DNA of 64,000 nt, taken from the NCBI GenBank assembly GCA_030248295.1, contig JASANH010001563.1, forward strand, positions 434,001 through 498,000, in the 5' to 3' direction. The notes under the pieces are model-generated. The model saw only the letters and a program-made list of their open reading frames with translations. It made no database searches and was not told the origin of the DNA. Within the stretch, counting starts at the first letter, position 1, and each line of letters starts with the position of its first letter. The position numbers and the translations under genes were made by a program. Source of the stretch: Mesodorylaimus sp. YZB2_4 (taxonomy: Eukaryota; Nematoda; Enoplea; Dorylaimida; Dorylaimidae). Of this stretch, positions 22,413 through 32,645 are shown piece after piece.

Positions 22413-23129
<717 letters not shown>

Positions 23130-23708
23130 AAAGACTATCGATTCTGGTGAGACCCATTGGAAAAACTGAAAAGATATAAATGATATAAACATATATAAAC
23201 CATGATCTGCGTCTGCTGGTTTTCTTTTTTGTTTTTTCTCAGTTTCATTAGAGCACGATCCCGTGGATGCCTTGGATAGCGTAGTCTGAGCACTCGTTTC
23301 CGTGTTGTTATCATTTCATCTATGATATAAAATGAAAATGATATTTTGCTGAGGCTTTTTGCCACCAGGCGTGGAATGGTGTGCTTTGGTGAAATGGAGC
23401 CATCACTCAAAACGGACGGTCAGCCGAGGCAGATGGTTCTAGCAGGAGGCAGGTACAGGGTGCATGGGCGGGACGAGTGGATCGATTGGCGGACGAGCCA
23501 TAAGCAGGCGTGTTGTCAAGGCGACACGGGCCTTAATAGGGATGCCAAGGCGGGTATTGGATTTGGACGAATCGATCGAGGAGCCGTCTCGGCAGCTCGG
23601 CAGTGTGCTCGCCATTCGTAGCAACAGCTCGTGCTTGGACTAAGTAATTTGGCTTTTTGGCCAGTACACGTCGTCGAGTAAATAGTACGCACGGCCGCAT
23701 TCCATTTC

Positions 23709-23716
23709 TATAAAAG
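23709..23716 (+). promoter_or_regulatory. TATA box (TATAAAAG)
   Basis: A consensus TATA box lies 148 bases before the ATG at 23857 of the histidine-rich gene. Few genes in this window have a TATA box, so this one may be more tissue- or stage-specific than its housekeeping neighbours. The functional reading is inference. Confidence 0.5.
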
Positions 23717-23856
23717 GCTGTTTGGCCTGTCCTGTTCGCTTGTGCGGGGCGGAGAATGGGAATCCAGTTCCGTCACTGATCGTGCGCCCATTCTCAACTA
23801 CTCCACCATTTCTACTCGGCACACAGCGTGACCAAGTTGGTCAAGGTCGAGTGAGG

Positions 23857-26800
23857 ATGACAATGGCTCACAGTCGGAGCAGTCCTCCCAGCGGCGGTGT
23901 GGGCTACCAAAACGAGGACGATATTAATCTCAGATTACCCTATGTGTTCGGCAGCAGTCGTCCTCGAGATTTGTCATATTTGGATTTCCTACCGGCCAAG
24001 TTACGCGTCTACAACACTCGCCTCCGTTCTATGCGAGTCAAGGGTGAGCCGACCCTCAGCGATTACCTCAAGCAAATTCGGTCGGCCCTGCCCGGCCGCG
24101 GCTCACCTGATCGACGTATTCGCGACCGGAGCGTGGACAGTGCCAGTCGATATTACGTATTCGGCAGCTCCACTCCCAGAGACCTGTCCTATCTGGAAAG
24201 ACTGCCCTGGGAATTCCGTATTTACGACGTGAAATTGGGATCGAGATCGAGGAAAGATGAGAAGCGAAGCAAGACCACTTCCTTCAGCTCAACGGGTACG
24301 TAGCCTTGTCCAAGGCACCACGTCTTACAGGGGAAGCCCGGGGTGGGTTATCACATGTTGGGTGCAGAACATTGGAGTGGATCGATTCCAGTCCCCCCTA
24401 CTCTGTCTGTGTAGAGAAAGAACAAGATGACGCAAACTTGTGCACAGCCGTATTCTCAAGGAGTGTTCACAGAGGCGCTGCCTCGCTGTACAGCCTGCCC
24501 TTCGACATGCGGGCTGCTTTGATCCTCCCTCAACCTCGTGCAGTGAAAAACCCCAATGCGTAACGTGTCTCCTTGTCAACAGCCAGCAGTACAATGGTTG
24601 TCCTCTCGTGGCCGCATGGCATCAACTTCAATCACCCTGCCCGACGCTCATCCATCACCACACCGTGTACAGCATATTTCACTTTTGTAATTCACCCTTT
24701 CAATATTGAAATAGTAGCCATTTTGACAAATGCACTCTCGCCGTGCACTGAACTGGGTCATTTACCAGTTCAAGGCCGTTGCAAAAAGGCGTGCACGACA
24801 CTGGCGTCCCGTCTGTCCCACTTGGACCATGGGCACAGATCGTATCAGCCTCGCACAAAAAGTTCGGCAAAGTTCACAGTTGGAAACTGGCCTTTTTGTG
24901 CGCCTGGCCCACACGTGGCCCACAGGGGATCCCTCCTCGAATCAGTATTCAAACCACTTATAGAATCCAAATTGACTTTTTGATATCGGCATGCGCCTTT
25001 CTCAGAAATCCCCGCCGCACTAGAAGAGGCTCATTAGAAAGCTAGACCCTCGTTCTAGGTTCAAATGGACGCCACGGCGGACGGAGAACGTCATCGCTCA
25101 ATATGCTCGATAGCCCTTCTCCCAACGGCAAACTCGAACATCAGGCCACCACTAGGACTGCACGCTCGCAGTCCAGGGGCAGACGCGAGCCGTCCCCAAC
25201 CAAACAACCCATTAGACAGTCACCAGTCAATAAGAAACAAGCCCCGACCCCGTCTCGCCCTGCGACGGCCACCAACGGAGGTGAGACGTGTTGTCTACAA
25301 GACTCTCCCCCTTCTAGAACGTTGCCCATCCGACCCGATGATCTAAGCTCCGCAGTGTCTCGCACCAGGCACCCCATCGATCAGTTGTCCTCTCTTTACA
25401 CATCTGTTTTTCTAGGCGCTACGCAAAAGATGGCCGTGATTCGGCCCAAAGCTAATGGCACTCCCAAATCGAAGGCCGCACCAGCACAGACGCCCATATC
25501 GGCCCCGATCCAAGTCCACTGTCCGAGCGCCTCGCCCAGCAGTTCAGCCCCGCAGTCTCACGAGCTGACCACATTCGAGGCCTCTTCTCCCACCAGTGAC
25601 GAATTCTTCGTGGTGCCCAACATGGGGCTCGAAGCGGACACTGGCAACGGACACTCGGCCCACGATCACGTGGATATTTCTCCCAACACCATTCTGAAGA
25701 CCATGGAAGACGTGCATCACGTGGTCACCAACACAAGCATCGAGACCAGTCAACGTGGGAGCGTGAAAGAGGAGCATACCTTCGAGGAGGGCGACTACCA
25801 AGAGCACATCGAACATGCCAAGGTCAGGTTCGAGGGGGCCCGTGAGAGTCAGCACGAGGACACCGAAGGACACCCTCACGGCTCCCATGAGACCGAAACG
25901 GGTCCCCGCACAGATTCGACTCAGCATGGAGCTACCACGAATGATTACCCAATCGATAACACTGATCACGGATCATCAGTCCACGAGCAATCGATCAATG
26001 TTGACGGGCACGGAATGGGTGGTCGTCAAAGTCAAAGCGAGGTCGATCACGGAGACGTGACTGCTCACATTGTCGGGGGCCACAGTCACGAAGTTAGCCA
26101 CCATCATCGCGAACAGATCGATGATCTCCCAGCTGACAAGACAGGCCACCTGGACGAAACGGACAGCCGGGAAAGCAGTCCCATTGAACACCACGGCCAC
26201 GAAGACGTCCAAGGTCACGGCCACCATGATCGAAGTGATCACGCACTGATAGGTCACAGCACTCATCATGATGAGCTTGACCACCGCCTCCACCAGCACC
26301 AAGAAGAGATCTTCAAGCAACACACTGATCACCAGTCGGATGGTACTGATCAACGCACTCATGGACCACAAAGTATCGGTGCACCTGATCACTATGATCA
26401 CAGGTCGATGATCAGTGATCAGTATGAACAGCACGAAGAAAGGCGACGTGGCGAGTACGAACAGGCCAGCCACATTCTGCATCAAGAAGACAGCACCCAC
26501 CAGGAGGACGAAGTCCACCACGCACAACCCAGTCACCACGAGGAGCCCGAAACGACGGTTCAACACATTCAATATGTTCACCAGGAGCCCGTTCAGTCTC
26601 CCCAATTCGATCACCCTGATCAACGTGGCGAGCACGAAGAAATCCACGATCACTCCAGCGATGGCCATCTCCCCATTGGTCAGCTGATTGATAACCACAA
26701 CCACGTTGACTACCCAGGCGACCACCACGAACAACACGTGCATTTCGCATCGCCACCCAGCATCACCGTGGACGAGCCCTGTCTCCAAGACGAGATCCAG

Positions 26801-27088
26801 GACCACCAGACAAGCCAAGACGAGAACCGCAACCCGGTCCATGTGGTCAAGGAGGGAGCCAGTCATGGCCAGACCCCTGAATCTCACCCCACCAACCCGT
26901 TCGATCCACCCGCGGCCCACTCCGATATCGACGAGGCGGCCTTGGCCAGCTTCGTGCAGGACTACGTTCCCGTACAGAAGATGTTGCATTCGCTATTCTT
27001 CGACGAGGCCACTGGTCTCAACGATCTGGGCCTGGCCAGCGCGGCTGGTGGCGAGGGCGGCCACAGTCCGCACGTCGACGGCCAGTGA
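23857..27088 (+). CDS. Unrecognised His-rich disordered protein with N-terminal tandem motif
   Basis: Exons 23857-24295, 25059-25280 and 25416-27088 join in phase to 777 residues; I do not recognise the family. Residues 28-146 hold two copies of one motif: YVFGSSRPRDLSYLDFLP with RVYNTRL, and YVFGSSTPRDLSYLERLP with RIYDVKL. A basic Ser/Pro-rich linker follows, then about 450 residues dominated by His, Asp, Glu and Gln with phrases such as EHHGHEDVQGHGHHDRSDH. The last 60 residues are more ordered in appearance (EAALASFVQDYVPVQKML, then LHSLFFDEATGLNDLGLAS). There is no signal peptide and no membrane segment. The His-rich part could bind metal ions or act as a pH-sensitive spacer; this is only a suggestion. 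The gene has a TATA box and converges with synergin gamma. Confidence 0.75.
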
Positions 27089-27360
27089 CCGCCTCGACGA
27101 TAAATGACCCTTAGCTAGTTATTTATCTCATCCACGTTGTCCCGTGCTCTTTGATAATAAGCCGAGCAGCTCAAATCCGTTTCCTTTCGCGCACCGCACC
27201 GTACAAGAATAAATATGATAGCATGTATTCGCCCAGGTCCGTCATAAGTAACATCCTTTTGGACTAGTACCAAGCTCGCCCTTACACCAGCCACACTTAA
27301 ATGTACACTCAACAACGCGTCAATGTCCACATTGGTTCCACTTGGATATTGATCAACCCC

Positions 27361-30300
27361 TCACAACAAGCATGGAACGTCCAATGCTGGCAGAACTGAA
27401 TCGATGCAGTTGATCCACAGGTTAGCGCACTGAAAAGGAAAGCACGGTAGGGTCTTCCCTGCTGACAGATAAATATGTTCAGCCAGGTGTGGCTTCAGGC
27501 CTAGACGCCACAGTAAGTTTAGGTTCCTCGCCTACTGCTAGTTCGAGACTGACCACTGCTAGAGTCTTCATCGTGACATGTTTGCTCTCAGCATGTGGGT
27601 TACAATCAACAACCCCACCCGATCGATCGACTGAACATACCTGCGCGTGATACTGCCTTCCTCCATAGGTCAGCTTATAGTCGAAGCTGGTGCCTTGATC
27701 CGTCTTGCAAGTCGCATCCACATTCAACAGGCAAACACCACAGCACGCAATCTTCCGCCTCTCGTCCACCGAGCCCGTCAACGGCACCGATGCATTTCGA
27801 AAATCAAGATTCTCAGGCGTTGGCTGAAGGAAGCAATGAAAAGTAAGACAAAGGCCAAATAGCACAATGCACTTGATAGGTTACCCCCTCAATGCGCTCC
27901 TGCCTCTATGGAGAAGGCCCGCACAACAAATACTTATCTGCCACACGAGCAGAGGACGCAGGCGCATGCCTCATGACCGAGAAACACGTAAAACACAAAA
28001 CCATCAGAGGCAACCTCCCACTGAATTACGGGCCCTCCTAATCCACTCAACACTTCCGAACTTACCAACAGTCCACTGAACGTCACATAGCCGCACAGAC
28101 TCGTCCACGTCGAGTCGATATCGGTCAGCAAATCAATCAGCTTGTCCGTTTGGAAAGCTGAAATCAGAACAGTCAACCGCCAACCAGCTCCCGCGTTCAG
28201 ACAAGCTTACCCATCGTCTGCAACGACAGTCGTATACGCCTCGACACGCGATAAATTTGCACATTGCCGCACAGATATTTCGAGCCTCGATCCGTGGCCA
28301 GTATCTCCTTCCGCACGCCCTCGTCCCCCGCCCTCGAAAACACACTTTCCGCCTGCTTCAGAAGTTGCAAACAAGCTTCCAAACACTTCGTCCACGCGTC
28401 CACATGCTTCTCCGCACTAGCCGATTCCTACAACGAAAACCAGTCTTGGCTGATCAACCACATCAGTCGCAGCAGAACATGCTCACCCCATTCTGATCGC
28501 CATTCTCTCTGAACGCCGCGTACCTATCGACCAGCGAAATGGAGCCAGCCGGCGACCGCATAACCGCCGCTAGCGACTGACCAGCCTCCGTCTCCCCTGC
28601 AACAAACCCACTCCACTCCAGCTCGCTCACACTAATCAGACCAGCATACCTGACTCCGGCTGTTCAAAATCGAACTGCTTTAGACTGTGTAAATCCAGGC
28701 TATGGATGGATGGTTCCTTCGATTCGCTCCTCACCGACCCAGCATCGTCGTCCGATTTGGCGTATCCACTCGCACCACCCAGATCCAACGATTCGTAGGT
28801 CTGTCGTATTAATTCGTTCAGATCTTTCTTGGGTATATTGGCCACATTGACAGTGAATCCCGAAGCAAGTTTAGGATCCGTTTGACTTCTGGCAATGGGC
28901 AGATTGGTCGAAACCAGGGTTGCTATTGCCGCATTCGAAGAGGATAACAGTTCATCATTGGCTCTCGGTGTGATTCGATCCGCTGACATCGTGCTGGGCA
29001 TCGCAGTTGCGAAATCACCAAAACTGTCGTCGTGCACTCTCGTAATGGGCAATTTCGGCTGATCCAAAGGACCAGCAGCTATCTGATCTGATTCAGTAGG
29101 ATGCGAATCCTTGTCTCGCTTAGCGTATTCCCCCGCCTGTTTGTCCAACGGATCGGCCAATGCTCGCAACGCCTCGTACGGATCTTGGCTCTGACTCAGA
29201 GCAGGAGTGTCCACAAGTTTAGGAAGTGGTTTCGACGCCGTCATCGACGTCATAACCGTGGAAGCTTGGAAATCAGTAAATTCGCCAAAATCGTCGCTGG
29301 AAACGGCCGAAGACGATGAGGCCAGGACAGAACTCCCCGGCGACGATACACCGATCGACGAAGGGGTGTTTAGTTCCACAATGCCATTCGATGGGCGACG
29401 TTCCGCGGGTGTGTTTAAGAGTGGCGGGATAGTAGGACTTGGGACAGCGGGCATTTGCTGCGGTGGATATGAAACAGCAGCGGGCGGAATGGTCAGTGCT
29501 GATAGTGATAAACGAGGAATCGGAGGGCGCGTCATACTCGAAAGCGATTCCAGGCTAGCCAAAGTACCAGTTTCCTAAATTAAAACGATCATGCTTTTTG
29601 GTCAGCGACCACGTTCAGCTCGGCTTACCTGCGCCAGTGCCACCAAAGCCAAGGCAGCGAAGAATTCCTCCTTGATTAACTGTCCAGGCTGCGATCGATT
29701 AGTCAGAGCCCAAATGGTCCCCAATATCTCGTTCGACAGTCCCGACGTCCGCAACAGAACGTACACGAGCCCCGTGTCCGGCAAGCCACCACCGTACGGT
29801 CGATTCGGAGGCAAACAAGCGTTCAAATATTTCAGATACTCCTGCGGAAGTTTTGATTTGTCCTTCGTCCACGGCGGCAGGAAACACATTGGGGCGCCGA
29901 TTGGTGCACCGCCTTGGCGACCATCCGGGCTGACCACTGTTGACATAGCTAAGGAAAAGAGCACGTTTTAATACATACGTGTTTTTATTTAGCATTAATG
30001 AGGTGATGGTTACTTGGTATAACAAACACGCCTTCCATTCCACTAGCCGATTTTAATCCTTGCGGCGAAAAATCGCCCATTGCACTTGAAGGATACTTGC
30101 CATTGTCGAGTCGGAGACCAGCAAAATGATGCATCATTTTCTCCAAATCTAAAATAATTTTCAGAAACAGACGTTCAACACTCAAATTAACTCACTCACC
30201 TTTGGGTGTCAGGTGAAGGGCAGATGGTGGTAAAGCTGAGCCGCCTTCAGGCGGCAGCACAAATTGGCCAGCTGAAGGTCGATTCACCGGAGTTGCAGCA

Positions 30301-31204: not shown

Positions 31205-31688
31205 TTCCTCCGAAAAACACCCAACTCGTCGAGCGAAACGACCAAACTAATTGAAGGGAGGGAAAGCCGCGAAAAGAATCGAGAACATACTGTACATCCA
31301 TCGCATCGATGCGGCACAAATCGCACTTGCAGGCGACCCAGTAATTAGCACCTATTTAAAGTCAACAAGTGATTAATAGCAGGAAAATTTTAGTTTCAGG
31401 AAATGTATTCTATGCAGTTGCATCTCGATTTTGAAGGGGTTACGCGACCTGGCATCATGCAGCAAATAAAATAGGACGAACTTCGCCAAATACTTCAACA
31501 ATTTTAGCGACTGCTTACGACTTCTTTTGTTCGCGTATCTGAAACTAAAACCAAGGCCTGGCAGCAAGTCTACCGTCTGCCATTTCCCACCCAAGCTCTT
31601 CGGCCGCTGCGCTGGGATCAGCTGATTGCTCTTGGCTTGGATGACTTTGCTATCAAAGTTTTCACGAATTTCTTCCTGATTTGTGACC
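31205..31688. promoter_or_regulatory. Shared divergent promoter region, SYNRG / SLC66A1
   Basis: Two start codons face apart across 484 bases, so both promoters must lie here. No TATA box is evident. A minus-strand frame of 108 codons inside it shows no family resemblance. Confidence 0.45.
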
Positions 31689-32645
31689 ATGTTCGGCAAG
31701 TATTATCCCCTGTTGTCTCTCCAGCTCGACCCTCTGGGCGAGTTCGATCAGTCCAACCTGACCGACTGTCCGGGCGGCAACGAATGGATCATGACTCATT
31801 TCGGGCAATGTGTATCGACTTCCTTCCAGTGGACTTCGTTTATTCTGGGGTTCGTCTCCTTAATTATTTGGTTTTTTCCTGGTTTGCCTCAGATTTATCA
31901 AAATTATAAACGAGGTAGTTGTGAAGAGGCCCTGTCGCCCATTTTTTTGTTTCTTTGGGCTCTTGGAGATTCCATGAATTTGACGGGGGCCATACTCACC
32001 AAACAATTACCAGTACAGATTTACGTTGGTTGTTATTACATGCTTCAAGATTGCATTATTTGGGGTCAGTTCATTTATTACAAAGCCAAGAACCGATGGC
32101 GAGTACGATTGGAACAGGATCTAGGCACCACGCATCCTCGATCGACCTCATTGAATGCATTGCTGTTTGGTGCTGCATTTCTGATTTCGGGCGGTGCATT
32201 CTATTCAAAATCATTCCCTTCCATCGAATCGGCTCAATCGATCGATAGTTATCGAAGCCGTACCCTCTTGGCCCCAATATTCAATGGTGCCACCGACGAG
32301 ATCGGTTACGCGTGCGGGATCATCTCGTCTGTGAGTTACCTGAGTGGGCGCATTCCTCAGCTGATCAAGAATTACAAACGCCAATCGACCGAGGGCGTAT
32401 CGATCGCCATGTATATCTTTATTTGTCTGGGCAATGCCACCTACGGGGCATCAGTCTTGTTAGGATGCGAAGGCGACCCGATCATCTACTACGCTCGTCA
32501 CTTGCCGTGGTTGGTGGGAAGTCTGGCCTGCCTCTTCTTGGATTCATTCGTCTTCTTGCAATATTTTCGATACAAAAATCTCAGCAAGGAAGATTTACTG
32601 CCTATTATCGACGACAGCCTCGACCGATCTGACCCTATCGCGTAG
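31689..32645 (+). CDS. SLC66A1: PQ-loop lysosomal cationic amino-acid exporter (SLC66A1/LAAT-1 type)
   Basis: A single uninterrupted reading frame of 318 residues, the only clearly intronless gene in the window. Two PQ-loop motifs are visible: FFPGLPQIYQNYKRGSCEEA near residue 60, and LSGRIPQLIKNYKRQSTEGV near residue 221. Each follows a hydrophobic helix, and the overall pattern is seven membrane segments. The phrase LSPIFLFLWALGDSMNLTGA is typical of the SLC66A1 (PQLC2) group. Relatives export lysine, arginine and the cysteamine-cysteine disulfide from lysosomes. There is an early glycosylation site (NLTD). The absence of introns among intron-rich neighbours could mean retroposition, but no poly(A) tail or target duplication is visible. 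A related cystinosin-type substrate is less likely. Confidence 0.9.
   Translation: MFGKYYPLLSLQLDPLGEFDQSNLTDCPGGNEWIMTHFGQCVSTSFQWTSFILGFVSLIIWFFPGLPQIYQNYKRGSCEEALSPIFLFLWALGDSMNLTGAILTKQLPVQIYVGCYYMLQDCIIWGQFIYYKAKNRWRVRLEQDLGTTHPRSTSLNALLFGAAFLISGGAFYSKSFPSIESAQSIDSYRSRTLLAPIFNGATDEIGYACGIISSVSYLSGRIPQLIKNYKRQSTEGVSIAMYIFICLGNATYGASVLLGCEGDPIIYYARHLPWLVGSLACLFLDSFVFLQYFRYKNLSKEDLLPIIDDSLDRSDPIA

Follow-up and report, generated by a model that had tools for sequence, protein, structure and literature searches.

A nematode gene encoding two copies of a module found in the MAP7/ensconsin of the same genome

What kind of protein joins a tandem 30-residue repeat to a long acidic, histidine-rich tail, and does its repeat belong to any known family? 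The question is raised by a locus in a 64-kb stretch of DNA from the nematode Mesodorylaimus sp. YZB2_4; this whole stretch, 64,000 nucleotides long, is referred to here as the window.

Gene structure and immediate surroundings

The coding span given in the preliminary description, 23857–27088 on the forward strand, proved to be right. The frame is open as far as a TGA stop codon at 27086–27088, and three splice-compatible exons, joined at GT–AG sites with both introns in phase 1, yield a protein of 777 residues that is open throughout. Exon 1 (23857–24295, +) contains the start codon and both repeats, with a GTACGT donor after position 24295. Intron 1 (24296–25058, +; 763 bases, GT..AG) separates it from exon 2 (25059–25280, +), which is basic and Ser/Pro-rich and resembles the P-region/linker of MAP7 by composition only. 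Intron 2 (25281–25415, +; 135 bases) is itself open in frame, so that a transcript retaining it would encode 45 further residues and meet no stop. Exon 3, including the stop codon, occupies 25416–27088 (+) in the splice model. The frame of this model scored best of the six in each of the three exons by codon usage, trained on one gene, the paralogous MAP7 on contig C29 described below. By frame and splice sites the gene model appears well supported, and splice sites, phase and frame together predict that the three exons form one transcript.

A TATA-box-like TATAAAAG lies at 23709–23716 (+), 148 bases upstream of the ATG. It is a consensus match only, and across the whole window the same string occurs twice in all on the forward strand and four times on the reverse strand. 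With an AATAAA polyadenylation-like signal (a string match) at 27208–27213 (+), this box fits a gene of such extent. A scan of 23600–23900 for bacterial-type promoters found nothing, and such a scan does not apply to animals. Just upstream on the same strand is the exon that encodes the C terminus of a dynein light chain (approximately 22952–23129, +; Dynein_light, E = 3.5e-31), and further along the window, at 31680–32642 (+), is an exon of a PQ-loop transporter (E = 1e-35).

Homology of the repeats to a stretch of MAP7/ensconsin

Repeat 1 (23941–24030, +; YVFGSSRPRDLSYLDFLPAKLRVYNTRLRS) and repeat 2 (24154–24243, +; YVFGSSTPRDLSYLERLPWEFRIYDVKLGS) share the consensus YVFGSS[R/T]PRDLSYL..LP....R[V/I]Y. 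They align with a score of 103, against a maximum of 46 among 1000 shuffles, and the two conserved 30-residue repeats noticed earlier are thereby confirmed. Their 30 codon pairs comprise five that are identical, 14 with synonymous differences only and 11 that encode different residues, giving a dN of 0.39 (NG86) and a dS that was not computable, which we read as saturation. This pattern suggests that the duplication is old and that selection on the protein has preserved it. Across three module pairs dN is 0.39–0.48, while dS could be computed only for repeat 2 with MAP7, at 1.83. Judged by these codons, the repeats are a module kept under protein-level constraint.

Profile and structure searches with the window sequence gave no family for the repeats. 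No Pfam profile covered them in exon 1 or in the spliced 777-residue protein; neither of these nor the large exon gave a credible family, exon 1 giving Gpi16 at E = 0.18, and a PDB search with exon 1 returned one chance match (E = 0.73). A HCV_capsid match to a 680-residue open reading frame (E = 0.0038, 17.9 bits, cut-off 22) was rejected as low-complexity basic sequence and is not among the results for the spliced protein. The single-sequence AlphaFold model of exon 1 was uninformative (pLDDT 33.9), and a scan of viral contigs for the pattern gave 18 stretches, none confirmed as a relative. A literature search for the strings YVFGSS, PRDLSYL and FGSSTPR, with most subscription papers outside its scope, found no match.

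The genome of the same animal (145 Mb) held a relative. Exon 1 matched at least two places, itself and C29:615530–615673 (−; E = 1.1e-5), and repeat 2 matched at least three, namely the two in the window and the one on C29 (three of the three candidates scored), both counts being lower bounds. By blastp, repeat 1 matches the C29 module with E = 9e-8 and 60% identity over 30 residues, and repeat 2 with E = 4e-9 over 38 residues. Exon 1 aligned to the complete C29 protein with a score of 105 (highest of 1000 shuffles, 60). The C29 module, YAFGSSTPRTLAYLEHLDNSMRVYNSRLGS, is present in a single copy directly after a helix-like stretch that is long and rich in Arg, Glu and Lys.

A genome search with PF05672, the Pfam MAP7 family, gave a single candidate at C29:612550–613068 (−; 16.2 bits, E = 0.513), approximately 2.5 kb downstream of the module on the same strand, its score falling below the cut-off because introns interrupt the domain. 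When the nine exons of this gene (616213–611602, −) were spliced into a protein of 987 residues, the C-terminal part matched Pfam MAP7 with 73.9 bits (E = 1.6e-20, cut-off 28.5). The best of nine PDB matches to the N-terminal part was human ensconsin (7sgs, E = 0.022), a match that is weak by itself. Shorter queries were less informative: the module exon alone found four chance PDB matches and not ensconsin, Pfam on pieces of the exons did not find MAP7, and Pfam on the spliced N-terminal part gave only CTNNB1_binding (E = 0.54). From the spliced PF05672 match, with 7sgs as the best PDB match, we take the C29 gene to be this animal's MAP7/ensconsin. The repeat is then a module of MAP7/ensconsin, since its C29 copy lies directly after the N-terminal helix in a gene with a MAP7 domain, and these comparisons show, at the level of sequence, that the module is homologous to the stretch after that helix. 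The suggestion that the repeat stands outside any known family therefore falls. The related view of it as a conserved binding module holds as to a conserved module, and fails as to its independence of known families. Calling the module a feature of MAP7 is our own definition, based on its presence in the MAP7 of this one genome.

As far as we have searched, this module of MAP7/ensconsin is undescribed. None of the titles listed by a literature search on the evolution and duplication of MAP7/ensconsin in invertebrates, with most subscription papers out of scope, describes such a gene. In the family (MAP7, MAP7D1–3, Drosophila ensconsin), the C29 member carries YxFGSSxPRxLxYL...R.Y once, with basic Ser/Pro-rich and then acidic sequence after it. 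Human ensconsin (7sgs, residues 152–181) has WSWGGS at 160–165, at about the position of YAFGSS in C29, a likeness (aromatic-x-aromatic-Gly-[Gly/Ser]-Ser) drawn from position and six residues only, with no statistics, and PRxLxYL...RxY is absent from residues 152–181. WSWGGS hints that part of the module may be old, although six residues prove nothing, and a literature search for WSWGG returned only papers that by title are unrelated to MAP7. Both nematode genes have a phase 1 intron after the module exon, which says little, as four of the eight introns of the C29 gene are phase 1.

Absent MAP7 domains and the composition of the remainder

MAP7 combines an N-terminal microtubule-binding helix with a C-terminal kinesin-binding domain, and neither was detected in the window protein. 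The kinesin-1-binding MAP7 domain (PF05672) is absent from the 777 residues, in which Pfam found no family at E up to 1. For the helix, tblastn of the 987-residue C29 protein against the window, both masked (E up to 1) and unmasked (E up to 0.01), matched only the two modules, a search that a very divergent helix may escape. Since neither defining domain was detected, we do not file the window protein as a MAP7: the repeat belongs to MAP7/ensconsin, and the protein as a whole, judged by its sequence, lies outside the family definition. It differs further from C29 MAP7 in having two modules in place of one and a much longer His-rich tail.

Net charge is +28 over residues 1–250 and −80 over residues 251–777. 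The basic linker-like part, residues 151–250, has a net charge of +16, with no significant sequence similarity to MAP7. The structural MAPs tau and MAP2 likewise combine a basic Pro-rich part with an acidic projection, and they share with the window protein both this charge layout and the disorder expected from composition; the window protein is probably disordered. It has no tau/MAP2 repeats, as follows from the lack of any Pfam family at E up to 1.

The acidic region covers residues 281–715 (25595–26899, +; coordinates converted by hand from the splice model). Its 435 residues include 67 His, 48 Glu and 43 Asp, in agreement with the His/Asp/Glu-rich region of about 450 residues described previously. 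An origin from tandem-repeat DNA was rejected, as TRF gives one 15-base row. In C29 MAP7, too, the module is followed by acidic sequence with some histidine, at most seven His per 60 residues compared with up to 16 per 60 in the window protein.

The last 61 residues (26903–27085, +) have no Pfam match and only a weak, post hoc similarity to the C terminus of MAP7; no relative was established for what had been called a conserved-looking C terminus. Near the end of the protein, an NPF tripeptide within NPFDPP (26894–26902, +) is a potential EH-domain ligand, NPF being the classic one. A downstream gene on the opposite strand, presumably synergin gamma, encodes an EH domain (29605–29967, −; PF12763, E = 1.7e-5), and this proximity is probably a coincidence.

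Possible function and competing explanations

We tentatively favour, at somewhat less than even probability, a MAP7-derived accessory protein in which the doubled module binds the partner of MAP7, the basic part binds microtubules weakly and the acidic tail forms a projection. Present twice, the module would engage bivalently the partner or surface that it engages in MAP7; the Pro/Ser-rich basic segment would add weak affinity for microtubules, as the MAP7 linker does; and the long acidic tail would form a projection repelling other microtubule proteins. If the three parts act in this manner, the window protein could tune MAP7 or compete with it on microtubules, without recruiting kinesin-1. 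In a bolder version, which we consider possible but doubtful, the module is a short linear module of invertebrate ensconsin with a partner of its own, and the window protein would be a stand-alone, bivalent MAP7-like regulator that competes with MAP7 or scaffolds it on microtubules, with an acidic His-rich projection that may be tuned by pH or metal.

Published work on MAP7 bears on these roles. Two structural accounts describe the human microtubule-binding domain as a helix that spans approximately residues 66–148 and whose ends are dynamic (PMC10908866, PMC10232616), and in the isolated domain on microtubules the residues after 148 are dynamic (PMC10908866), so the module may not be in contact with the microtubule. 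A further study (PMC6446838) explains the action of MAP7 by two helical domains and the linker that joins them, a family architecture with a single homologue in flies, where MAP7 proteins are said to be essential cofactors of kinesin-1. The same study reports that the P-region of the linker binds microtubules, that the proline-rich part of the linker binds them weakly in COS7 cells, that smaller P-region fragments lacking the N-terminal helix show no enrichment on microtubules in HeLa cells, and that MAP7-Ct does not cosediment with microtubules (PMC6446838). The C-terminal half of MAP7 (residues 353–749) neither binds microtubules nor displaces tau. Binding thus failed for most MAP7 fragments that lack the N-terminal helix, which speaks against the favoured reading.

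How the remainder of the protein relates to MAP7 distinguishes two other histories. In one, which we judge unlikely, the gene is a degenerating or fast-evolving MAP7 duplicate that lost both helical domains and kept the rest with no specific role on microtubules. The window protein and C29 MAP7 do share an order of module, then basic, then acidic/His sequence, and blastp gives weak pieces in common, of which several lie in the same order in both proteins (E = 0.37, 1.4 and 1.6). However, these pieces are individually not significant and two are out of order (552–571 with 36–55, and 666–677 with 976–987). A weak similarity between the last 77 residues and the C terminus of MAP7, reached by 11 of 1000 shuffles, also speaks for a duplicate, with the qualification that the pair was chosen post hoc after a blastp piece; a comparison of the last 60 residues with MAP7 in full gave a score reached by 59 of 500 shuffles. 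Decay also sits poorly with a frame open over 777 codons and with a module that is doubled and under strong amino-acid constraint. In the other history, somewhat unlikely in our estimation, an unrelated gene, one encoding an acidic His-rich protein, captured the module exon of MAP7, and the module was duplicated in tandem later. This would suit the finding that only the module is demonstrably common. The similarity of exon 2 to MAP7 was reached by 207 of 500 shuffles, and that of the remainder, tail included, by 42 and 35 of 300 shuffles that preserved local composition (in windows of 20 and 50 residues, respectively) and by six of 300 full shuffles. Against capture stand the matching order of composition and the lack of a second copy of the acidic tail in the genome that could have been its source (a self match only, at E up to 10). 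From these sequence comparisons, the likeness to MAP7 outside the module appears to be compositional, and they did not establish homology for exon 2, for the acidic region or for the C terminus.

The preliminary description had also proposed metal or pH sensing from the histidine content, and this remained unsupported. On that account, which we consider very improbable, the His-rich region would bind Zn2+ or Cu2+ or change its charge with pH, the repeats being an independent binding module. The density of histidine given above is in its favour, as is a possible faint spacing, seen as an autocorrelation peak of 0.133 at lag 13 among lags 1–39; yet the other 38 lags are at or below 0.071, Pfam recognised no metal-binding family in the 777-residue protein at E up to 1, and composition alone does not make a sensor. 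A literature search pairing His-rich with MAP7 returned no match.

The accessory protein derived from MAP7 remains the reading that we prefer. That a separate gene has kept, and doubled, only the stretch after the helix suggests that this stretch has a function of its own, and the window protein would be a natural separation-of-function protein with which to test the module.

Apart from the locus, the assembly contains several copies of mitochondrial COX1, with 15 matches on 11 contigs (C73, C273, C47, C741 and seven others). A TAA or TAG lies inside seven of the 15, and several matches are probably nuclear mitochondrial insertions. The C73 copy has no stop under the invertebrate mitochondrial code (ATA Met, AGR Ser, TGA Trp). 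Its lysine codons are four AAA and no AAG, and the lysine of GIKVFSW is kept, which we take to speak against the flatworm and echinoderm codes. This copy may itself be a nuclear insertion.
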